This document shows positions 13,737 through 62,790 of a DNA stretch of 64,000 nucleotides, one piece after another. The notes under the pieces were generated by a model. The model was not told the DNA's origin. It ran no database searches and saw only the letters and a list, made by a program, of their open reading frames with translations. This DNA comes from Hydra vulgaris. Its lineage: Eukaryota; Cnidaria; Hydrozoa; Anthoathecata; Hydridae. Location of the stretch: the NCBI RefSeq assembly GCF_038396675.1, contig NC_088920.1:29459501-29523500 (forward strand), in the 5' to 3' direction. The stretch's first letter is position 1; every line of letters starts with the position of its first letter. The translations under genes and the position numbers were made by a program.

Positions 13737-14506
13737 CTGTAGAAGGAAAAAAGGTTTGGTTAGTAAGTCCACGTGTTTATGTGTGTGAATGGGTATTTCA
13801 TGATTTGAATGAGAGAAATAAAAGATTCATTTTATTTGAACAAAAAAAATTTTAACAAAAATGTAAAAAATAGTTTTAAAAACAAAACGAAAAAAACAAA
13901 ACAAATAAAAAACAGCTTTTATGAAAACATAATATAATGACAAGCAGAATCATTGGCTATTCAAATTTCATCGAACTACATTTTTTGGTATAAAAAATAA
14001 ATTTCAATAGCTTTGATAGGTCAAAGGCTGTTAATCAAAATAAAAAGCAAGTCCATCATGAAATGCTAATGTGCAGTAAGTATAAAAAAACCTTATTTTG
14101 ATATTTGGTGTTCGTATTTGGTGTTAATTGTATTTTTGTGATGTAAGATACTTGTGTATTTCATTTGTGTCGGTTAAAAAAAGTTTTGATTAAATAATAA
14201 CATTATATCACTCTATTATCTTTAAATATTTGAAAGTTTCGATGCCGCTGTCATCTCTAAAATATATTATGTGAGAAACAAAATTTATCATAATGTCTTG
14301 AATATAATATTACAAGTTTTTTTTCCCTGTTACATTAGTAACAATTGACTTACCACAGTAGCAATTGCGTCATCAATAACTAAATTACCATATTATTATT
14401 TAGTTAACTGTCAAATTACTGCAATAAATAGAGTCACTAGCTGCAATAGTTAGGGCTGAAAATTGCTAAGGTTTACTTAACTCAAGTGTGTGAGTGTATA
14501 TAATAC

Positions 14507-14537
<31 letters not shown>

Positions 14538-14595
14538 TGTATGTATGTATGTATGTATGTATGTATGTATGTATGTATGTATGTATGTATGTATG

Positions 14596-14626
<31 letters not shown>

Positions 14627-14651
14627 GTACGTACGTAAGTATGTATGTATG

Positions 14652-14788
<137 letters not shown>

Positions 14789-16342
14789 TACGTATGTATG
14801 TACGTATGTATGTATGTATGTATGTATGTATGTATGTATGTATGTATGTATGTATGTATGTATGTATGTATGTATGTATGTATGTATGTACGTACGTAAG
14901 TATGTATGTATGTATGTATGTATGTATGTATGTATGTATGTATGTATGTATGTATGTATGTATGTACGTACGTACGTAAGTATGTATGTATGTATGTATG
15001 TATGTATGTATGTATGTATGTATGTATGTATGTATGTATGTATGTATGTATGTATGTATGTATGTATGTATGTACGTAAGTATGTATGTATGTATGTATG
15101 TATGTATGTATGTATGTATGTATGTATGTATGTATGTATGTATGTATGTATGTATGTATGTATGTATGTATGTATGTATGTATGTATGTATGTATGTATG
15201 TATGTATGTATGTATGTATGTATGTATGTATGTATGTATGTATGTATGTATGTATGTATGTATGTATGTATGTATGTATGTATGTAGGTATGTATGTAGG
15301 TATTTATGTATGTATGTATGTATAAATGTAATTATGTATTAATGTATGTATATATGTCTTTATGTGTGTATGTATGTATGTATTTATGTATGTATATATG
15401 TATGTATGTATGTATTTATGTACGTATGTATTTATGTATGTATGTATGTATTTATGTATGTACGTAAGTATGTATGTATTTATGTATGTATGTATGTATG
15501 TATGTATGTATGTATGTATGTATGTATGTATGTATGTATGTATGTATGTATGTATGTATGTATGTATGTATGTATGTATGTATGTATGTATGTATGTATG
15601 TATGTATAAATGTAAGTTTGATTTTACCTGTTTGTGTGTCAGTCTGCAATTTTTATGTATACGTGTATTTATGAAAGCAAGCGTTATTGTTTGTGTGTCT
15701 ATGTCTATTTTTTATGTATGTAAATATCTATATATGCATGAATGTGTGTATGAATGTAAGTTTGGCCTTTTATTTGTCTGTGGGTCTATCTACGTTCTAT
15801 CTGTGTGTGTATCTCTGTCTACATGTGTGTCTGTCTCTCTATCTCCCTGTCTGTATGTATGTATTTATGTATCTATACATATCTACGAAAGGAAGTTTTA
15901 TTTTTTGTTTTTCCATGTGATTGTCTGTTTTTTTTTCTGTATGTTTGTTTGTATGTGTGTATGTATGTATGTATGTATGTATGTATGTATGTATGTATGT
16001 ATGTATGTATGTATGTATGTATGTATGTATGTATGTATGTATGTATGTATGTATGTATGTATGTATGTATGTATGTATGTATGTATGTATGTATGTATGT
16101 ATGTATGTATGTATGTATGTATGTATGTATGTATGTATGTATGTATGTATGTATGTATGTATGTATGTATGTATGTATGTATGTATGCATATTAGGGTTA
16201 TGACTTTTTTTCAACCCCATACTCCTGTACTGTAGTTTGGTGAACTTTTACGTAAAAAGCACGGTATGAACTTTTATTTGCATATCTTTTGAAAAAAGTT
16301 TACCCCGCCGTTGAAAAGTCGATTTTTAACTACGCAAACCGG

Positions 16343-16498
16343 TTTTTATTGTCGTCATAATTGAAATTTATTTAAGTTCAGTTAAATATTTAACTGAATT
16401 TAAATAAAAACTGTCTCGAAGATTTTTTATTTAAAAAAATATATTTGTTAAAACATTTAACTGAATTTAAATAAATTTCAATGATGACGACAATAAAA

Positions 16499-16500
<2 letters not shown>
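16343..16500. mobile_element. 158-bp inverted-repeat element abutting an ATGT array
   Basis: TTTTTATTGTCGTCATAATTG and the following bases to 16387 recur inverted at 16455-16500, giving arms of about 45 bp that are nearly identical. A partial third copy of the inner arm (ATTTAACTGAATTTAAAT) lies at 16386-16403. The right arm ends in CAATAAAAAT and the next bases are already the ATGT array. There is no coding sequence, and no target duplication can be recognised because of the flanking repeats. MITE-like. Confidence 0.65.
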
Positions 16501-16531
<31 letters not shown>

Positions 16532-17406
16532 TGTATGTATGTATGTATGTATGTATGTATGTATGTATGTATGTATGTATGTATGTATGTATGTATGTAT
16601 GTATGTATGTATGTATGTATGTATGTATGTATGTATGTATGTATGTATTTGTTTGTTTGTTTGTCTGTTTGGTTGTTTGTTTGTTTGTATTTATGTATAT
16701 ATGCATGTTTGCATGTAGATACAAATGTAAGTTCAGCTGTTTGCCTATCTGTACGTAACTATGTGTGCTCTATGAACGTAAATTTTGTTATTTGTTTGTC
16801 TATGTGACCGTCTGTTGCTTTGTCTGTCAGTCTATCCGTTTCTCAGTATGTATGTTTTTATGTATGTATGTATGTATGTATGTATGTATGTATGTATGTA
16901 TGTATGTATGTATGTATGTATGTATGTATGTATGTATGTATGTATGTATGTATGTATGTATGTATGTATGTATGTATGTATGTATGTATGTATGTATGTA
17001 TGTATGTATGTATGTATGCATGTATGTAGGCTTGTATGTATGTATGTATGTATGTATGTATGTATGTATGTATGTATGTATGTATGTATGTATGTATGTA
17101 TGTATGTATGTATGTATGTATGTATGTATGTATGTATGTATGTATGTATGTATGTATGTATGTATGTATGTATGTATGTATGTATGTATGTATGTACGAA
17201 TGTATGTATGTAGGCTTGTATGTATGCATGTATGTATTTATGTATTTATGTATGTAAGTATGTATGTATGTATGTATGTATGTATGTATGTATGTATGTA
17301 TGTATGTATGTATGTATGTATGTATGTATGTATGTATGTATGTATGTATGTATGTATGTATGTATGTATGTATGTATGTATGTATGTATGTATGTATGTA
17401 TGTATG

Positions 17407-17437
<31 letters not shown>

Positions 17438-17499
17438 GTTTATTTATAGGTGTATGTATGAATGTATGCAAGATTTTTTTATCCATATGTTTTATATAA

Positions 17500-49869: not shown

Positions 49870-51675
49870 TTGTTACGACAATTAAAAAGTTCGACTATCG
49901 ACTAAATCGAATAATATATTTTTAAAAGTCGACTCGACCAAAGTCGACTCGACCAAAGTCGACTCGACCAAAGTCGACTCGACCAAAGTCAACTCGACCA
50001 AAGTCGACTCGACCAAAGTCGACTCGACCAAAGTCGACTCGACCAAAGTCGACTCGACCAAAGTCGACTCGACCAAAGTCGACTCGACCAAAGTCGACTT
50101 TTGAACATATTAAAATTTTTGAAATTATATTTTGAACAAACACTTTTTTGAAATCGATTTAGTCGAAATGAGAGAGAGGTGGGGGTAGGGGTGGGGTGGG
50201 GGAGGCTATTAATAAAAGAAATCAAGTAATTTATGTTTGTTTTATATATTTTAAATTGTATAACTTAAATATTAATGAAACAAAACAATATGAACGCAGG
50301 ATAAACTTTGCTAGGTCCCAGTGATTTAATATTGTGAAAAAGTTCCTTTGATTTCTTGATAAATATAAAATAAATATAAGTCTAAAATAGCAAAATAAAA
50401 GTAAATATAAGTTGTAAAATTAGTATATTTTATTTAGATATTATTGTTTAGATTATACTATTTAGGTCTCACAATTTAATTATCCTTAGAGCCCTAGTTA
50501 AAGAACGCAACGGATTGGCACTTTATATTGGATCGGCATTGTATGCAAATATTTTTAATTATCACATGCGAAGACTGCAAAAAAAACAACAACAAAAAAA
50601 CAACGCATAACTATAAAGTTTTTGAAGTATTATTGTACTTCAAAAACAAAAACAATAAATATTATTATTGTCTTATTATATGAAGTTGTTTAATAATGCA
50701 GGGCCTTCAAAAAAAATCTTTAGACCATAAAAAGGCAGATGCCAAAAAGCATGGGAAAAAACCCTTTTTTGGCGAGCCCTCGTTAAATGATCAGTCGTAA
50801 ATTCAGAAATACAGAAGCTAACTAACATTTTTTTGGATTTAAATTAAGTGAGATATCGAAAAAAGAAATTTTTAATTTTGATTATTTATTATTTCTAACA
50901 ATACTAAAGAAATGAAAAGATATGTTAATATAATAAAAATAGAGAAAAAGTATACAAAAATAGTGTAAGATGAAAATAATATTATTTGTACAAACACACA
51001 CCCAATGAATCTTTCCCAACCTCTTTTCAGGCCTGGTTGTTTGTATATTATTTTTTAGATACTATCTTAGAACTACGATTCGGTTACTGTTAACATTACG
51101 AATTGTTAACTTAGGCGGAATTTAATTCTAGTTAAAATACATAATTACCGGAAGACGTTATAAAGCTACTTTCAGTATATTATAAGTTACTCTTGAGTTA
51201 CTTTTAATTGTTCTCAAGTTACCGCAGATACCGGTACCGGTAACTAAAAGTAATTTTTTTGGAAGTTGCTGAAATCCTTGAATCCCTAATATAACTTCAA
51301 GAGAGTAAACAAAAAACTTAGTGCCGGATTAGGAGAGAGATCGTTGGGATGGAGGGAGAAACTATATTTTAATTTTTAATTTAATATGAAAGGAAGGGAA
51401 GGGGGGAGGGGAGGAATATTTATTCCACCTTTAAAAAATCTACATCCTATTCGACAGTCATATTCGCTTTCGTTAACAAAATAAAATTAAAAAGATTTAT
51501 AATGTTCAATCAAATAAAAAGATAATAGAAATAAGTACTATTATTCGACTAAATTGACTTTTAGTCGATTAGTAGCAAATCCAAAGTCGATTAGATCAAC
51601 TATTAGATTTTTAAAAGTCGACTAATTTCGACCAGTCGACTTTTAGTCGATTTAGACACTTTTTAATTTTAAATT
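49870..51675. mobile_element. Candidate non-autonomous element with GTCGACT-rich inverted ends
   Basis: The left end (AATTAAAAAGTTCGACTATC, TTTTTAAAAGTCGACT) is mirrored at the right end (AGTCGACTTTTAGTCGATTT, ACTTTTTAATTT, about 51620-51675). The arms are imperfect, with shared subterminal AGTCGAC motifs. The 15-bp minisatellite at 49925-50099 is an expansion of this motif at the left end. The interior is non-coding, with a GGGGTGGGGTGGGGGA purine tract near 50180. Target duplication not found; borders approximate. Confidence 0.4.
49925..50099. repeat. 15-bp minisatellite, 11 complete units
   Basis: AAAGTCGACTCGACC is repeated eleven times from 49925 to 50089 with a partial twelfth. Only one unit deviates visibly (GTCAACTC near 49988), which indicates recent expansion or homogenisation. 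On the minus strand the length divisible by three makes fake LVEST, GRVDF and RLWSS repeat peptides. Confidence 0.95.
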
Positions 51676-52070
51676 TGCATAGCGTAAGTTTAAACTTTAG
51701 ATTTAGAATTTACATAAAAGTTCGTGCGTTATTCCTAAATGATATAATTATGATATTTAAAAATTATAATATGCAATTCCCTTAAGGCCTCTAACGCACG
51801 TATATGAAATCATTGTTGCAACGTAAACGGCTAATTACTCTCTAGTGGTTATTTAGATAAGATTTACAACGATTTCAAACATATTATATTTATACCTTAG
51901 CAATCTTTTTATAACATCTCCTTAATCGCTCGGTAACCTAAGTGAAGTAACATGTGTTACAAATTTACTAATAGGATAAGTTACTAATTTATTAATATTT
52001 GTTGTATGCTACGAGTAAAAAAAGTACTTGCTTTTTAGTTTGAATAAACACGATCAATCCGTTACTAAGA
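50100..52070. other. Non-coding region between the minisatellite and the hAT transposase
   Basis: No gene was seen on either strand. It includes the rest of the GTCGACT-ended candidate element to about 51675 and then AT-rich DNA with scattered GTTACT/AAGTAA motifs (51170-51250 and 51930-52040) that may be hAT subterminal repeats. A GGAAGGGAAGGGGGGAGGGG tract lies at about 51392. Confidence 0.4.
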
Positions 52071-52074
52071 AAGG

Positions 52075-52437
52075 AATAAGAAAACGAAGCTTCTTTTGGA
52101 CATATTTCGAAATAGACCAAAAGAATCAAACAAAATGAAGCATATGCTATAAGATTCTACCTTACAACAGATCGACCAGTTCAAAGCAAATCCATATATC
52201 AATTGATCATTGCATTAATTCATAAATATCTAAAAAATCAATAATTTTACTCAACGATGACGATATGTCCGATATTGAGAGCGGTAATTAGAATGTTTTT
52301 TGAGAGACTGGCCATAAAAAATTAAACAAGTTATTGGTGAATTTTATTGTTGGTACTGATCAGCCGATTTCGATACTACGTCATCCAGATTTTGTAAATT
52401 TAGTTAGTGAGTTAAACAAAAGCTAGAAAATGGCATG
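52075..52437 (+). pseudogene. BED-finger hAT transposase, part 1 of an interrupted gene
   Basis: RSFFWTYFEIDQKNQTK is the start of a BED zinc finger. After a degenerate stretch the frame reads DDDMSDIESGN and then KLLVNFIVGTDQPISILRHP, DFVNLVSELNKS, a stop, and KMACR. This is the region before the catalytic domain of ZBED-like hAT transposases. At about 52438 the frame is cut by the large inverted-repeat insertion. It resumes for 34 bp at 59582 and again at 62355. Stops within this fragment show that the gene was already dead or decayed afterwards. Confidence 0.7.
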
Positions 52438-53571
52438 CAGATAGGTTAAATCTATCGTTAAATAGTAGCCTTGTTTCCGTTAGGTATAAACTCAAAAAAC
52501 AAAAATAATCATATTTTAGAATTTTTTAAAATTATATAATTAAAATGCCAGTCTATAATTACACTGTTGAAGATGTTTAGCAGTCTCTGATAGAATAATA
52601 AGTTATTATAATAAAAAAGTGTCAACTTTGGGGTATGTGTATATATAGCCCACTATTTAAGTTAAACTTTTATATAATTTGTGATTAAGAGTTTATTATT
52701 ATTGTATATTTTATATTATTTTATGTTTCTGAAGTTAATTTTATACTATGTCTCAGCATCTCAAAACTCACAGTTGTTTTGGGACTTCCATTTTGTGCAT
52801 TGACTTATTTGTCGATTTTGCTCAGAACTATTAGTCAATTTTGTTATGTATTTAAGAGTTGCAATTAAGTATTACTAATAATACTTATTGAAAACAATCT
52901 AAGACCAAATTAACTGTAAATTTATTATGGATTTGAATCTAATTTTCAGAAAGTGACCCTAGGTACAGTTTAAAAAAAGCTTATTGTACCTAGGGCCACT
53001 AACTTTTAAACCCTTTTACTTGATGGAATTTTATTAGTATTAGTCAATTATTTATACTACTTTTATAATTATATTTTAATTTTTATAATTATAATTTAAT
53101 TTTTTATAATTACTTATACTAATACAAAGTAATTAGTATAGAGATGTGATCGTATCAGTTTTGCCTTTTTTAGACAAGTCTGGGGCCTTGAATTTGGGCA
53201 CCAAAAAAATCTGGCTATAGGTACACAAACTTCCCTTAGACCTTATTGGACCTCTTGCCTTAAAAACTTGAAAATAATATATTATTACAATTATTGATAA
53301 TTGAAGTAAATATATTGAAAAATTAACAATTTATACAACTACTTTATTTTATAGATTTTTGGTACTCTTCAAAAAACTCTAAAATTTTAGATTATTTGAT
53401 AAAGTCTGCTTATTTTCCTTAAACCAATCAATGGGAAAAAGGTTCAGAGTTTAAACTGGTAGCGGTAAAGGCTCGAAAAAAGTTATTTGTTAATGATAGT
53501 ATCGTTGTTAAAAGGGGCTGTCGAAGTTCAAATTTTTCTAAAGTTTTCTTCAAAGTTTGTCAATACAGTCT

Positions 53572-53860
53572 AAAGACGAGGCCTTAGATATTTTAAGAGA
53601 CTCACCTGGCTGGCTTAATGATACCTTGATTGATATAGCACAAAGTTTGTTTTTATATCAGTTTTCTAAAATATTTGGGTTTCCAAGTATAAAATATCTG
53701 GATTTTTTGCATTTTTAGTTGTTTTAATTCATGTGGTTTTTCGGAAAGTTACAGTTGTTTGCAATTGATTAATGCTAGAAAATCATGTTGGGTGTTTCTA
53801 AGTAATGTGTCCTGATGTTGTTTTATATTGGAAGTGTGTTTAGTTTTATGATTCACTCTT
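53572..53860 (+). pseudogene. Remnant resembling a Ulp1/C48-type cysteine protease (left arm)
   Basis: One frame reads KDEALDILRDSPGWLNDTLI and DIAQSLFLYQF before a stop at 53716. Another reads LQLINARKSCWVFLSNV (about 53755) and then PDVVLYWKCV and FYDSLFNSLS. The order W-L-N-D, then H-W-V (here C-W-V), then Y-D-S recalls the Trp, catalytic His and Asp of Ulp1-like (C48) proteases that often ride in DNA transposons. A later piece (KCIENGKLEMFSFVT, about 54020) lies where such proteins usually end. The catalytic His is replaced by Cys here and by Tyr in the other arm. The family assignment is an inference from pattern. Confidence 0.4.
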
Positions 53861-55216
53861 TAATAGTTTAAGTAAAGGTGATGCGCCATTGTTAGTGCAT
53901 AGAGCACATGAAAATGATTGTGATTTTTTCTTAAAAAGAAATGCGATGGTTTTGTGTAGCAGTATCAACCTAAGTTTAGTTATATAAAAAGATAATGACA
54001 TGCAGTAGCATTATCTGAAATGTATTGAGAATGGTAAATTAGAGATGTTTTCTTTTGTTACTGTGTCATACTGTCATAAACAGTGTGTCTTTAGTACTAT
54101 CAATGTTGTGAATATATCCTGTTATTTCTACTGTTTTTGTTTTTATGACATATTTGAATATTTAAATTCAATCAATATACAAAAATATGTTTTTTTTGTT
54201 TTTTATTGTTGGTTTGTTTATGTACCTTATGTTCTAGTTAATATTTAAAAAAATTCATTACTTATTTTATTTTTGTAAGTGTCTTTTAGATGTCTAAAGT
54301 TATACAATTGGCTAATTTAGGTCAACTATTGTTTCTTCTTTATTTTGTTATTGGCATGATGATTTGTTTTGCTCACTTTGTAGTTGTTTTTATCTTACTG
54401 TCATCAGTTATTCAACTAGGGTTATCGATATAAGATATAGTCAATAGGTACAGTTATTAAAGTCAGTTCTTTATTTACATACATTTTGTTGTAGTTGCAG
54501 TTGATTATAGCTACTATTACAACTACACCAAAAGTAGTATTTAAAAATATGGCTATGTAATTTTTAATTATAATGAGATATTTGATCAATTTTTTATAGA
54601 ATATTATGAAAGTATAAACTATTCTGGCATGTTGATATATGTCTGTTTTAACATTTTTTACATTTATTTGATTTAAAAATTCGAATCCTTCAATTAGAGT
54701 TCATTTTGTAAATCAATTTATTGACATATATTAATCAATGCATTTATTAAGTACTCTTCTGGCACAAAGGCATTTTTATAATTATTTTATTTATTCGTTG
54801 TGATTTTATGATACTACTTATATTATACTATATTTCTATTCTATGTAGGCTTGTAATTCCATGTGGAAAACTCGAATTTCGACCGAAAATGCCCAAGTTT
54901 TAACCAAGTTAAATTTTTTCAAAAGGACTTAAAAACCATGTTGTTTTATTTTGCTATTTATATTGTGTAAGGATGTTATTTTTCTCATTGATGTGTAAGG
55001 ATATTATTATATTGATTTTTTTTTCAAAATAAAGTTTTAGTGTAGCATGAAGTGTGTCGTTTCTTTATTATCGTTTTTATTTAAAACATTCTCATAGTAA
55101 GAAATAGTAAACTAAGTTTAGGTCACATTTTGTTATTATTGCGCTATGCATACATTAAGATCGCTAAAATCGTCGAATAATACCCGTCTAGGTTGTTATT
55201 CAACGGTAGTACAGTA

Positions 55217-55277
55217 GTGGTATAGTGGTAGAGCGCTCGCCTCATAATCAAAAAGTTCTGAGTTCGATCGCCACCAC
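55217..55277 (+). repeat. tRNA-like segment (SINE-like) in the left arm
   Basis: GTGGTATAGTGGTAGAGCGC has a box A-like core, CTCATAA sits at the anticodon loop position and GAGTTCGATCG is box B-like. The ends GTGGT and ACCAC can pair. The anticodon stem and T stem are poorly formed, so this is a tRNA-derived repeat and not a working tRNA gene. About 150 bp of downstream sequence to 55430 is equally conserved in the other arm and may be the SINE body. Confidence 0.55.
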
Positions 55278-55896
55278 GTCTCTGGCAGTACCGCGCTCAA
55301 CTTGTTTCTCCGTGTAGTGGTCTTGTTCGTCATGGTTTGTGTTTCGAAGTTATATTTAGAGAGGGTTGTAACAACAACTAAAGCAGCCTCTTCGACTGTA
55401 GTGTCTTTTTCGGCTTTGAGTAGATAAATTAACACACAAAAAAAAGGCTAGACACGAATTAATAAATTCTTTTCTTTTTTCTGGGATAACATCAGAATGC
55501 TGTCCTTACTATTTATCTGCGTAGAATCAAGTAACAGTTACAAATTTAACAATCGATAAGTTTAAGGGTGAAGGATAAATAATTTAACGTAAAACATTTT
55601 GCTAAAATGAACAGTTAAATTATTTAGGAATACAATAAACTTCCTTGTGAGATGACTATTTTATTTGATATCATTAATACAATGGCCTATCAAAAGCTTT
55701 TTCTTAAAAATATATTTCTTGTCATACTATACTATAAAGATATAAACTGCGATTAGAATATACATCGTGAGTTAAATATTATTATAAGTAGTAAATTATC
55801 ACTATAAAAATGCCCTAAAGTAATAACCATTCGCATGGCAAAGAAAATGCTTTTAGTTCGGTTAACGTATGTTTTTTTTTTAAGTTTGTTCGTCTG

Positions 55897-56037
55897 GTGT
55901 CACGTTAAATAAGTAGACAAAATGATATTCTGCGCATGCGTTAGTTTACGGATACTTATTTAACGTATTAAGTCACGTTAAATAAGTAGATCGTTAAATA
56001 TGTAGACAAACTGAACAATCGAGGCATTTTAACGAGT
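55897..56037. repeat. Spacer of the inverted repeat, holding two transposon ends
   Basis: The 141 bp contain GTCACGTTAAATAAGTAGAC (55899) and GTCACGTTAAATAAGTAGAT (55972) in direct orientation. The second one continues to GACAAACTGAACAATCGAGG and is the exact partner of the inverse sequence at 59524-59581. The spacer is thus the junction between two transposon termini. Confidence 0.75.
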
Positions 56038-56659
56038 CAGACGAACAAATTTAAAAAAAAACATATGTTAACCGAACTAAAAGCGTTTTCTTTGCCAAGC
56101 GAATTGTTATTACTTTAGAACATTTTTATAGTGATAATTTATTACTTATAATAATATTTAACTCACGACGTATATTCTAATCGCAATTTATATCATTATA
56201 GTATAGTATGACAAGAAATATATTTTTAAGAAAAAGCTTTTTGATACGCCATTGTATTAATGATATCAAATAAAATAGTCATCTCACAAGGAAGTTTATT
56301 GTATTCCTAAATAATTTAACTGTTCATTTTAGCAAAATGTTTTACGTTAAATTATTTATCCTTAACCCTTAAACTTAACGATTGTAAAATTTGTAATTGT
56401 TACTTGATTCTACGCAGATAAATAGTAAGGACAGCATTCTGATGTTATCCCAAAAAAAAGAAAAGAATTTATTAATTCGTGTCTAGCCTTTTTTTGTGTG
56501 TTAATTTACCTCCTCAAAGCCGAAAAAGACACTACAGTCAAGGAGGCTGCTTTAGTTGTTGTTACAACCCTCTCTCAACTCTATAACTTCGAAACACAAA
56601 CCATGACGATCAAGATCGCTACACGGAGAAACAAGTTGAGCGCGGTACTGCCAGAGACG

Positions 56660-56722
56660 TGGTGGCGATCGAACTCAGAACTTTTTGATTATGAGGCGAG
56701 CGCTCTACCACTACACCACTAC
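56660..56722 (-). repeat. tRNA-like segment (SINE-like) in the right arm
   Basis: Inverse counterpart of 55217-55277 with one visible difference (GTGTAGTGG for GTATAGTGG). It shows that the segment was already present before the two arms formed. Confidence 0.55.
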
Positions 56723-58059
56723 TGTACTACCGTTGAATAACAACCTAGACGGGTATTATTCGACGATTTTAGCGATCTTAATGTATGCATAGCGCAATTA
56801 TAATAAAAATGTGACCTAAACTTAGTTTACTATTTCTTACTATGAGAATGTTTTAAATAAAAACGATATTAAAGAAACGACACACTTCATGCTACACTAA
56901 AACTTTATTTTGAAAAAAAAATCAATATAATAATATCCTTACACATCAATGAGAAAAATAACATCCTTACACAATATAAATAGCAAAATAAAACAACATG
57001 GTTTTTAAGTCCTTTTGAAAAAATTTAACTTGGTTGAAACTTGGGCATTTTCGGAAGAAATTCGATTTTTCCACATGGAATTACAAGCCTACATAGAAAA
57101 GAAATATAGTATAATATAAATAAAATCACAACAAATAAATAAAATAATTATAAAAATGCTTTTGTGCCAGAAGAGTACTTAATAAATGCATTGATTAATA
57201 TATGTCAATAAATTGATTTACAAAATGAACTCTAATTGAAGGATTTGAATTTATAAATCAAATAAATAAAAAAAAATGTTAAAACAGCCATATACCAACA
57301 TGTCAGAAAAGTCTATACTTTCACAATATTCGATAAAAAATTGATCAAATATCTCATTATAATTAAAAATTGCATAGCCATATTTTTAAATACTACTTTT
57401 GGTGTAGTTGTAATAGTAGCTATAATCAACTGCAACTACAACAAAATGTATGTAAATAAAGAACTGACTTTAATAACTGTACCTATTGACTATATCTTAT
57501 ATCGATAACCCTAGTTGAATAACTGATGACAGTAAGATAAAAACAACTACAAAGTGAGCAAAACAAATCATCATGCCAATAACAAAATAAAGAAGAAACA
57601 ATAGTTGACCTAAATTAGCCAATTGTATAACTTTAGACATCTATAAGACACTTACAAAAATGAAGTAAGTAATGAATTTTTTAAATATTAACTAGAACAT
57701 AAACAAACTAACAATAAAAAACAAAAAAAACATATTTATGTATATTGATTGAACTTAAATATTCAAATATGTCATAAAAACAAAAACTGTAGAAATAACA
57801 GGATATATTCACAACATTGATAGTACTAAAGACACACTGTTTATGACAGTATGACACAGTAACAAAAGAAAACATCTCTAATTTACCATTCTCAATACAT
57901 TTCAGGTAATGCGACCACATGTCATTATCTTTTTATATAACTAAACTTAGGTTGATACTGCTACACAAAACCATTGCATCTCCTTTTAAGAAAAGATCAC
58001 AATCATTTTCATGTGCAACTCTAAACAATGCACAAACAATGGCGCATCACCTTTACTTA

Positions 58060-58360
58060 AACTATTAAAGAGTGAATCATAAAACTAAACACACTTCCAA
58101 TATAAAACAACATCAGGACACATTACTTAGAAACACCCAATATGATTTTCTAACATTAATCGTTTGCATACAACTGTAACCTTCTGAAAAACCACCTGAA
58201 TTAAAATAACTAAAAATGCAAAAAATCCAGATATTTTAAACTTGGAAACCCAAATATTTTAGAAAACTGATATAAAAACAAACTTTGTGCTATATCAATC
58301 AAAGTATCATCAAGGCAGCCAGGTGAGTCTCTTAAAATATCTAAGGCCTTGTCTTAAGAC
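58060..58360 (-). pseudogene. Remnant resembling a Ulp1/C48-type cysteine protease (right arm)
   Basis: Minus-strand mirror of 53572-53860. RDSPG is followed by WL and a single-base difference, and KSYWVF stands where the left arm has KSCWVF. Both can derive from an ancestral KSHW (CAT to TAT, CAT to TGT). It is disrupted by stops. Confidence 0.35.
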
Positions 58361-59581
58361 TGTATTGACAAACTTTAAAGAAAAATTTGAACTTCGACAG
58401 CCCCTTTTTACAACGGTACTATCATTAACAAAGAGCTTTTTTCAAACCTTTACCGCTACCAGTTTAAACTCTGAACCTTTTTCTCATCGATTGGTTTAAG
58501 GTAAATAAGCAGACTTTATCAAATAATCTAAAATTTTAGAGTTTTTTGAAGAGTACCAAAAATCTATAAATTAAAGTAGTTGCATAAATTGTTAATTTTT
58601 CAATATATTTACTTCAATTATCAATAATTGTAATAATATATTTTTTTCAAGTTTTATTAAGGCAAGAAGTCCAATAAGGTCTAAGGGAAGTTTGTGTACC
58701 TATAGCCAGATTTTTTTAATGCCCAAATTCAAGACCCCAGACTTGTCTAAAGAAGGCGAAACTGATACGATCACATCTCTATACTAATTACTTTGTATTA
58801 GTATAAGTATATTGACTTATACTAATAAAATTCCATCAAGTAAAAGGGTTTAAAAATCAGTGGCGCTAGGTACAATCAGCTTTTTTTAAACTGTACCTAG
58901 GGTCACTTTCTGAAAATTAGATTCAAATCCATAATAAATTTACAGTTAATTTGGTCTTAGATTGTTTTCAATAAGTATTTCTAGTAATACTTAATTGCAA
59001 CTTATAAATACATAACAAAATTGACTAATAGTTCTGAGCAAAATTGACAAATAAGTCAATGCATAAAATGGAAGTCCCAAAACAACTGTGAGTTTTGAGA
59101 TGCTGAAACATAGTATAAAATTAACTTCAGAAACATAAAATAATATAAAATATACAATAATAATAAACTCTTAATCATAAATTATATAAAAGCTTAACTT
59201 GAATAGTGGGCTATATATACACATACCACAAAGTTGACACTTTTTTATTATAATAACTTATTATTCTATCAGAGACTGCTAAACATCTTCAACAGAGTAA
59301 TTATAGACTGGCATTTTAATTATGTAATTTTAAAAATTTTAAAAATACGATTATTTTTGTTTTTTGAGTTTATACCTAACGGAAACAAGGCTACTTATTT
59401 AACGATAGATTTAACCTATCTAACGGAAGCTTTGCGCTGTATCTGCGCAGGCGTTACGCTTGCGCAGAACTGACTGTCTACTTATTTAACGATCTACTTA
59501 TTTAATGTGACACTGGGTTAGCATAATGCCTCGATTGTTCAGTTTGTCTACTTATTTAACGATCTACTTATTTAACGTGAC

Positions 59582-59615
59582 AACGGTGAGCGAGAAATTA
59601 ATTCCATCAACCGTG
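59582..59615 (+). pseudogene. BED-finger hAT transposase, part 2 (34-bp island)
   Basis: Between the end of the large insertion and the start of the P-like element, one frame reads TVSEKLIPSTV. It joins CR of part 1 and ADILKS of part 3 in sense. The island proves that two insertions hit the same gene a few codons apart. The last ten bases ATCAACCGTG are also the left target copy of the P-like element. Confidence 0.7.
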
Positions 59616-62354
59616 GCCTACTAAAAGTATATGGCCTAATATTCTGCATATTTGCCGAAAAAATAGAAGGCCAGTTTAGTATGCGGTTCTGAATAAAAGT
59701 GTAAAGAATCTACATAAATTTAAAATTAAAATATTGAAAATAAAGAATGGTTAACAAATGTTGTGTTGTTGGCTGTTTTTCTAATTATTCCAGACATGAT
59801 GTGGTGCCAGTGCTTTCATTTTCTGTAAATGAAGAATTAAGAACAACATGGATAAAATTTGTAAATAGACTAAACTGGATACCAACTAAGTCATCAGTTA
59901 TTTGTTCAAAACATTTTCAGGAAAAATATTTAAAACATGGAAAACAAGAAAAAAGATTTCGTTTAATAAAGAAGTTAAAACCAATACCAACTATACATAC
60001 ATACATGTTATACCAAAATCATCTATACCGGCAATAAATTTGGAAAGAAAATCTCCAACAAAACGTATTTACCAGAATGATCAAAGCAGCAAATTTTTTA
60101 AAAATGATTTCATAAAAAATTTAAATTGAATTGCTGATATTCCATGCTCAAGTGGCTACCAAATGCTAAAACATAATGATCATATTGTATTTTACAAAAT
60201 GTTGTTTAATGAGTTTTTTGTACCAGAAGTTGTTGAGTGTATACGAGTTGGCGAGAGTTTACATGTAAAACTATTTAAGGGTTGTTTAGTACCATTACCA
60301 AAGTGGTTTCGTAATGGTCATAATTGTACATTAACTCGTAAAAGTATATTTGAAAACTTTCCTGCCTATTAAGAAGTCAAGCAGAAAAAAATTTCTCAGT
60401 TTTCGAAGAACTTGAAAAAATAAAATATCTAAAAAAACCAATGTACTCTGGTAACCTAATTCGATATGCATTATTATTGTGCTATACATCTATGCAATCC
60501 TACAAAGTACTTTTAGAAGAATTTTGATTACCTTCACTTTCTTTATTAAATAAAATTTGTTCTGGTAACATTGATGCACTAAAAGCTGCAAAATTATTAC
60601 TTGAAGATGGCAAAATGTCACAAGATGTCTGCATAATATTTGATGAAATGTATTTACAAAAATGTGCCGAATACTCTAGTGGAACTATAACAGGCGTAAA
60701 CAATGTTAGTGAACTCTACAATATTGTGGTTTGTTTTATGATAAACAAATTTTAGGAAAACATCCCATACATTATAAAAGCAATTTCAGTTGTAAAAATT
60801 GATAGTGATTGGTTAAAAAATGAGATTCTTGAAACTTTGAATCTTTTGCTTAATAGTGGTTTTGTTGTGTAAACTATTGTGTGCGATAATCATGTAAGCA
60901 ATGTTTCTGCATTTAATAAATTGATATCAGAATACGAAAATGGCTTTGATAGCTTCTCAATTTTATATAACTGCAGAAAAGTTTATTTATTCTATGATGC
61001 AGTACATTTAATTAAAAATGTGAGACACAACTTGTTAAATTGAAAGAGGTTTTTGTTTCCCCCATTTGAGTTTATTGGGTTTATAGATGATATTACAGTT
61101 AAAGGTGGAGAAGTATCTTGGAAACTGTTTCATGACGTCCATTAAAAAGATCTTGCTTTAGATGCAGATTTACGTAAAGCTCCAAAACTAACAAATAAAG
61201 TGCTACACCCAGGAAAATAAAAACAAAATGTTCAAGTAGCTCTTGACTTGTTTAATGAAAATACAATAACTGGTTTGAAATCATACTTTCCTTTATGTGA
61301 GGATGCTGTTGGCTTTTTAGGATTGTTTAAATGGTGGATTATTGGTAATAGTAAAAACCAGTTTTGTTCCAATAACTATTTAGTAAATGCTGCTATCTTG
61401 CATGATAAAAAACCAGAGTTTTTACGAGTGATGGCATTATGGATTGATAATTAAGAAAAACAAAAAACCTTGAACTGTGAGAAATTTGTTATGTCTACTC
61501 AAACTAGTTCAGCATTTAAATAAACACTTATTATGCTTCTTTAATTGAAGATCTTTTGAACAATGGTTACAAATTTGTCATGACTGCAAGATTTCAAAGT
61601 GATCCAATAGAGAGAAGGTTTGGATAGTATAGACAGATGAGTGGTGGCAGGTTTTTGGTGAGCTTAAAAGATGTTTTGTGTTCAGAGCAAATTATCAAAT
61701 TTAAAAGTCTGCAATATTGATTTCAAAAAGACTAATGATCAAAAAATATTTAAAACAATGTTTTGGAAAAGCTTCAGTGCACTTTAAATAATTTGTCTTT
61801 GTCAGAAGATGGCAGAGAAGTTGCCTTTCATATTGCAGGTTATATTGCAAAGAAAATTTCAAAAAGATTTGGTAAATGCTGTAATGAACTAATACTTGTG
61901 ATGCTTTTGCCATTTTAGACTTTACTTTTGATGTAATGAACAACACCGATTTGCCATTAAGAACAACTGCTCAGTTTATTTTAAAAACATTTTTATTCAA
62001 AGAAAATATCCTTTGTTCTGATCACCAAAAACTTGGGATAAATCTCATAAACAAAGCAATCAGTAATATATTCTTCAATAATAAAAGAAAAATAAATACT
62101 GATGAAAATATTATAGACAAAATAGTTAGTTTTAAAAAAAGACAACGAAAAAAGCAAGATTAAACATAAATAAATAAAATTAACAAGTTTTTAATGAACG
62201 ATAATGCTTTTTTTTTTTCTAGAAAAATATAAGAAATTTAAAAAAATTTTTTTTATATTTCTTATATTTTTTTATAGCGCAGTAATTCTTTTTAAATGGC
62301 CTTCTATTTTTTCGGCAAATATGCGGAATATAAGGCCGTATACTTTAAGTAGGC
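59616..62354 (+). mobile_element. P-like transposon, 2739 bp, with 57-bp terminal inverted repeats
   Basis: The left end (59616-59672, starting GCCTACTAAAAGTATATGGC) and the inverse of the right end (62298-62354) agree in 53 of 57 positions by eye. The element is flanked by ATCAACCG(TG) on the left and ATCAACTG(CG) on the right, an imperfect 8-10 bp target duplication. P elements make 8-bp duplications. Inside is a THAP-type transposase gene on +. The element is inserted into a hAT transposase reading frame. Confidence 0.88.
59747..62163 (+). pseudogene. P-element (THAP-domain) transposase, inactivated
   Basis: It starts MVNKCCVVGCFSNYSRHDVV with a C2CH THAP finger: C5/C10, W35, then C53 and H56 in VICSKHF. 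After a frame break near 60000 come FYKMLFNEFFVPEVVE, DVCIIFDEMYLQKCAEYSSG (first catalytic aspartate, about 60630-60680), VCDNHVSNVSAFNKLISEYE and VYLFYDAVHLIKNVRHNLLN (second acidic site, about 60985). The downstream domain ends with ARFQSDPIERRFG, a stop, and YRQMSGGRFLVSLKDV (about 61590-61670), the conserved C-terminal P motif. About ten stops or shifts make it inactive. The THAP domain would bind the terminal regions. Cuts would be made by the RNase H-like core. Confidence 0.88.
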
Positions 62355-62790
62355 ATCAACTGCGGACATTCTAAAATCAATTTTAATGCTAGAATTGAAG
62401 GGATGTCATTTCATTACAATTACTTGTGATCGTTGGTCATCATTGAGTAAAAACAGCTACCTCGGTGTGACTTGTCATTTAATTGACAAAAATATGATTC
62501 TGGTTGACCGAAACCTGGATCTTAGGTCTGAAGTGAAAACAGCTGAATATTTATTTATACCGTTAAGCGAAATCTTCAGTGAATGGTCAGTCAGTAATAA
62601 AATTTTTGCACAAGTTACTGACTCAGGTGCAAACATTTTCTCTGCAGTAAATAAATTTGATGATAATGTTCTTAAAAATCCATGTGCTGGTCATCGTTTG
62701 AATCTTGTGGTTAGCGATTTTCTAAACACGAGAGATATAAAAATTAAAAAATGGGTCAAAGCGTTACGAAGTAAAAGATTACGACGGTAA
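62355..62790 (+). pseudogene. BED-finger hAT transposase, part 3 (catalytic domain)
   Basis: STADILKSILMLELKGCHFI runs into TITCDRWSSLSKNSYLGVTC (first catalytic aspartate in CDRW), VTDSGANIFSAVNKF (second) and NPCAGHRLNLVVSDFL, the CxxH motif of hAT proteins. The frame is open over 134 codons and then ends where a minus-strand LINE begins, at about 62790. The glutamate and dimerisation region are thus missing. Confidence 0.8.

Follow-up and report, generated by a model that had tools for sequence, protein, structure and literature searches.

A 64-kb stretch of the Hydra vulgaris genome (contig NC_088920.1, positions 29,459,501 to 29,523,500, here called the window) contains a near-palindromic inverted repeat composite of about 7 kb, at 52440-59582, that interrupts a hAT-like gene. 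An earlier reading of the sequence, the original prediction, had placed two inverse arms of about 3.4 kb at 52438-59581; blastn and a repeat search recover both arms, and the limits are corrected slightly to those given here. The composite is almost certainly a nested self-insertion, in which an older copy of a transposon family, with the hAT-like gene as its host, holds a younger copy in the opposite orientation. Its parts and immediate borders are listed below, with L and R denoting the two ends of the element.

52160..52439, + strand: upstream flank in the hAT-like gene, terminating in ATGCA where relatives of the gene then read TAAATACG
52440..55897, - strand: older (outer) transposon copy, main part, defined by alignment to the right-hand and genomic copies; R end lost at 52440
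55894..55897, no strand: target site duplication CTGG left of the inner copy, the last 4 bases of the outer main part
55898..59512, + strand: inner and younger copy of the transposon, 3615 bp, complete at either end (TGTCAC...GTGACA), with a double L-end motif at 55898 and 55971
59513..59582, - strand: displaced L end of the outer copy, 70 bp, from read-through alignment with 18 genomic copies; pattern match at C1:29519013-29519039
59513..59516, no strand: target site duplication CTGG right of the inner copy, the first 4 bases of the displaced L end
59583..59586, no strand: the outer copy's remaining target duplication, ACGG, within the hAT-like gene; left counterpart deleted

When positions 51000-61000 are compared with the window by blastn, 53108-58813 matches its own inverse (93.9% identity including gaps), and a further inverse match joins 52439-53059 to 58799-59421 (96.0%). 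The repeat search of the window returns 15 inverted pairs that are in line with these arms. Self-alignment, which had been suggested as the measure of arm identity, gives 96.40% over 3361 ungapped aligned columns. The terminal motif CGTTAAATAAGTAGA occurs nine times in the window with at most two mismatches, as compared to a mean of 0.33 in shuffled sequence, and all nine occurrences fall within 55903-59577. Terminal motifs are located at 55898, 55971, 59512 and 59582, so that the two motifs expected in a spacer between the arms and their inverse partner at the right border are indeed present.

The genome searched for relatives comprises 911.5 Mb in 15 contigs. Searching with a 2-kb piece of the right arm yields 3946 candidates, of which 40 places (71 matched pieces) were scored; two of these are the window's own arms, and 10-kb segments were fetched for 20 of the remaining 38. 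The usual form in these 20 loci is a single element of about 3.6-3.9 kb, which agrees with the earlier view that the arms are inverse copies of one DNA transposon family of about 3.5 kb. Both ends can be found by motif in 14 of the 20, and 13 of these 14 are flanked by identical 4-bp duplications (8 CCGG, 4 CCGT/ACGG and 1 GCGG), the fourteenth having GCGG/GCGC. The L-end sequence matches 21 + 28 genomic places with at most three mismatches, the window's outer copy included, and the terminal motif matches 208 + 185 places versus 0 for the reversed control; many copies bear two motifs, and these places are not a count of elements. The L end is itself double, with two motifs about 89 bp apart in 16 of 18 aligned copies, while L010 and L026 have the inner motif only.

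Further observations were made on the same set of copies. In twelve of the 20 fetched loci (L014, L017-L022 and L024-L028) the element is interrupted by about 254 bp of inserted sequence, which has inverted ends and what appears to be a duplicated ATAT (near 5703-5961 in L025, corresponding to 57290-57293 in the window). Neither window copy has this insert, and L023 has a larger one at the same site. By eye, a copy in L015 (4281-4296) seems to have entered the end of a diverged and older relative, at an ACGG.

The motifs at 55898 and 55971, 73 bp apart because one 16-bp unit is missing relative to other copies, make up the right-hand copy's double L end. The original prediction had two transposon ends meeting in the centre of the structure; both motifs belong instead to one end of one copy. 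The spacer does contain them, as described, but has no separate identity: most of it belongs to the L end of the right-hand copy, and the corresponding end of the left-hand copy has been displaced to 59513-59582.

The inner copy has CTGG directly on either side. If the outer copy is joined across it and one CTGG is removed, the joined site reads GAGGCATTATGCTAACCCAGACGAAC and aligns without a break to the L end of 18 genomic copies, most of which have GAGGCATTTTGCTAACCCAG at this point with single-base differences among them. Because the CTGG duplications are identical and the outer copy reads through, 59513-59582 is the displaced L end of the outer copy, and the insertion point of the inner copy is 66-70 bp inside that end. 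The inner copy has a long L end, whereas that of the outer copy is short like those of L010 and L026. These different L-end variants indicate that the donors differed and that the inner copy is not a direct copy of the outer one. The closest relatives of the inner copy are L013 (up to 96.6% identical) and the partial copy L016a (97.2%). The outer copy is up to 96.4% identical to L026, the same value that it shows against the inner copy. In a tree of 19 sequences the branch to the outer copy is longer than that to the inner one (0.030 and 0.021, respectively), a point in favor of nesting.

The outer borders can be read against relatives of the host gene. On the right, the composite is followed by ACGG and a hAT-like reading frame; on the left, the same frame stops at ATGCA. 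A search with the hAT-like flank finds 39 other genomic places among 40 scored, and all four of the relatives fetched lack the insertion and read ATGCATAAATACG and onward. The target is ACGG in three of the four and ACGA in the other. Since uninterrupted relatives carry ACGG, this is the sequence that the outer copy entered. Missing from the left border are 5 bp of the gene, one ACGG and 92 bp of the R end, a loss of about 101 bp, and the sequences joined at the break have no more than one base in common; the 92 bp is the element sequence absent there as measured against the right-hand copy. The earlier estimate that this border is short by about 100 bp was therefore accurate.

Several points weigh against nested self-insertion. 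The CTGG target of the inner copy is unusual compared with the NCGG or CCGT of other copies, although it is only one base off CCGG. The two arms are sisters in the tree, with a weak support of 0.67, which could hint at a closer relation between them or at gene conversion. The inner copy's own L end deviates from other copies at the corresponding site, a deviation that leaves the read-through test unaffected. Finally, the composite is read from the genome assembly alone, and the transposase that moved both copies is one that we infer.

The original prediction favored a single element rearranged by aberrant transposition or template switching; gap repair and template switching during replication belong to the same reading. 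The truncated left border and the weakly supported sister relation of the arms are what such an event might leave behind. However, it does not account for identical CTGG duplications, for an outer copy that reads through without interruption or for L-end variants that differ between the two copies, and the 3.6% difference between the arms is about the same as their difference from other genomic copies. We consider an origin from one element very improbable. An assembly artefact, or two haplotypes joined by the assembler as the original prediction had allowed, is if anything harder to credit. The arms are not near-identical, their ends differ, only one set of flanks exists and the target duplications at both levels fit two insertions. 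Joined haplotypes in particular are unlikely: the similarity of either arm to other genomic copies is about the same as to its partner, and there is a single flank set.

Foldback transposons such as Galileo and Tetris have two long inverted arms with a short centre and move as a unit. The overall shape of the composite, with long arms, a short centre and gene sequence on either side, would fit such an element with 3.4-kb terminal inverted repeats that is mobile as a 7-kb unit, but the usual form in the 20 loci is a single arm copy with its own ends and target duplications, the central junction is found once in 911.5 Mb (at most three mismatches) and the inner copy carries its own CTGG duplication, which together leave this explanation with almost no credibility. 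With a junction that is single in the genome, there is no sign of a 7-kb unit moving. The likeness to Galileo and Tetris (PMC2775673, PMC4079207) extends to the long inverted arms and short centre; mobility of the composite as a unit is not seen.

Nested self-insertion is an ordinary event in a transposon-rich genome, here with a small border deletion added, and not a new structure. Insertions of one transposon inside another are described for Hydra (PMC12220107) and for plants (PMC3903597, PMC6911290). The composite resembles them in this respect and differs in that guest and host belong to one family and lie in opposite directions, which produces a near-palindrome. As the anatomy shows, a 3.6-kb non-autonomous Ginger1-like transposon first inserted into ACGG in the hAT-like gene, and a further family member, derived from a different donor and in the opposite direction, then entered CTGG in the L end of the first. 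The second insertion duplicated CTGG and created a head-to-head inverted repeat whose apparent spacer is the second copy's own L end. A deletion of about 101 bp at the left border, presumably the third step, joined hAT-like sequence to the interior of the outer copy. We see no function of the composite's own.

The ends and targets of this family resemble those of Ginger1 DNA transposons. In Bao, Kapitonov and Jurka (2010, PMC2836005), Ginger1 is represented in Hydra by 12 published families, and its ends are TGTNR and its target duplications CCGG (75%) or CCGT/ACGG (24%). Ginger1 elements have terminal inverted repeats that span about 40-270 bp and use a Gypsy-type integrase as transposase, with an H2C2 zinc finger, YPYY and GPY/F motifs and an OTU or Ulp1 domain as further features. 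The genomic copies and both window copies end in TGTCA or TGTCG, which fits TGTNR. Their terminal repeat is near-perfect over about 38 bp, with matching stretches of 37-60 bp between the ends, and lies at the lower edge of the Ginger1 range. The family shares with Ginger1 its 4-bp duplications (CCGG or CCGT/ACGG), TGTNR ends, terminal inverted repeats, an integrase-bearing relative and the Hydra host. It differs in having no recognizable transposase, and in that its shared terminal repeat, about 38 bp long, recurs internally at the L end.

In keeping with the earlier statement that the arms match no nameable transposase class, two frames of the family (56429-56740 in the window and 4849-5202 in L025) have no integrase match and only one weak match, to GPR128_GAIN_subdomA (about 0.01, below its cut-off). 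No frame of at least 150 amino acids with an ATG, GTG or TTG start occurs inside the composite, and the longest stop-to-stop frame there is 103 amino acids. A potential source of transposase is L037 (C5:9264041-9268932, L037:42-4933), a 4.9-kb element with the same ends as the arms' family that matches the single copy L025 at 73-77% identity in several internal blocks. It has an integrase core (PF00665, rve) with an E value of 1.5e-10, above the cut-off, and weak Integrase_H2C2 matches in two frames (0.0017 and 0.035, below the cut-off); in the 5 of its 14 listed frames that were tested, Pfam finds neither OTU nor Ulp1. Another element, from C12:27421125 to about 27426014, is alike to L037 in length and sequence. 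Because the two frames tested in the arms' family show no integrase and a match is found only in L037, the arms are placed by ends and target alone; their best description is that of non-autonomous elements working in the manner of Ginger1. Both copies would presumably have been moved in trans by an integrase-type transposase that L037 or elements like it encode.

Ends of this transposon group also abut one another elsewhere in the genome. A pattern for two ends 0-30 bp apart matches eight places and none in the control. In six of these the gap is exactly 4 bp (CCGG or ACGG/CCGT), and in two it is 6 bp (CCGGGG); no other spacing occurs within the 0-30 bp range. With a fixed 4-bp gap and at most three mismatches, 18 places are found versus 2 for the reversed control, on contigs C2, C4, C5, C6, C8, C9, C10, C11, C12, C13, C14 and C15. 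Fourteen of the 18 have at most one mismatch, and CCGG or CCGT/ACGG separates the ends in 12 of these 14.

The most extended case is C6:2776244-2795825 (L032-L035), where five copies lie end to end with only CCGG or CCGGGG between them. Four run in the same direction and the fifth is head to head with the fourth. In their L halves, copies 1-3 are 99.9-100% alike and copies 4 and 5 are 99.87% alike but only about 98% alike to copies 1-3. The R halves, compared for copies 2-4, are identical, and copy 4 is therefore a mosaic that points to recombination or gene conversion in the array. Copies 1-4 may derive from tandem duplication, and unequal crossing-over by itself does not explain the head-to-head junction.

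By a rough hand estimate, chance would produce about 0.1 end-to-end insertions, given approximately 420,000 CCGG sites (extrapolated from 257 kb, a sample rich in these elements) and an assumed number of about 200 elements; the abutting places are not independent of one another. Roughly judged, end-to-end abutment is commoner than this estimate. The excess could be explained by local hopping with a rare target. We tentatively propose, while leaning slightly against it, that this Ginger1-like group inserts preferentially at its own ends, mainly at the flanking CCGG duplication, and so gives rise to head-to-tail and head-to-head arrays and to inverted repeats of the kind described here. In a literature search of weak scope, none of the matches listed, judged by title and opening of the abstract, deals with self-insertion or end-to-end arrays of Ginger elements. 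The words 'tandem' and 'nested' each occur 0 times in the available text of PMC2836005, as does 'ginger' in that of PMC12220107.

Taken alone, the locus has little wider meaning: finding the target duplications resolves a 7-kb near-palindrome in a transposon-rich genome into two ordinary insertions. Should the end-to-end bias hold, arrays and palindromes would have a source in an integrase-type transposase, or in local hopping combined with a rare 4-bp target, and there would be a simple route from a cut-and-paste transposon with a rare target to such structures. They could then act as fragile sites and might give rise to double-stranded RNA.

The host gene continues to the right of the composite and is interrupted a second time.

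59583..59611, + strand: downstream hAT-like gene piece between the composite and a P-type element; right limit approximate
59616..62354, + strand: P-type transposon (THAP domain) with a broken reading frame; inverted repeats 59616-59678 / 62293-62354, outer limits approximate
62353..62790, + strand: continuation of the hAT-like gene, with DUF659

The THAP domain of the P-type element within the hAT-like gene has an E value of 2e-12. The hAT-like frame flanks the composite on both sides, as the original prediction held, but its assignment to hAT is probable rather than firm, with a DUF659 match (E = 3.3e-6) that is below the curated cut-off. Two short relatives of the gene give no DUF659 or hAT match. 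The window's gene has a stop codon, TAG, where all four fetched relatives have TAC, and the frame is open across the insertion site in three of the four; this gene is probably a dead hAT copy.

Stretches with tRNA-like boxes that look SINE-like by eye are present inside both arms, at about 55220-55279 and in mirror position at about 56660-56719. ARAGORN finds no tRNA in the window, and Rfam gives two sub-threshold microRNA matches and no tRNA on 50000-62000. For this reason we do not claim that the arms captured an old SINE, the boxes having been read by eye and not confirmed by either program. Far from the composite, positions 14490-17499 of the window contain long TATG-type repeat runs (MYVC frames) with a strong GC skew of 0.49-0.54.

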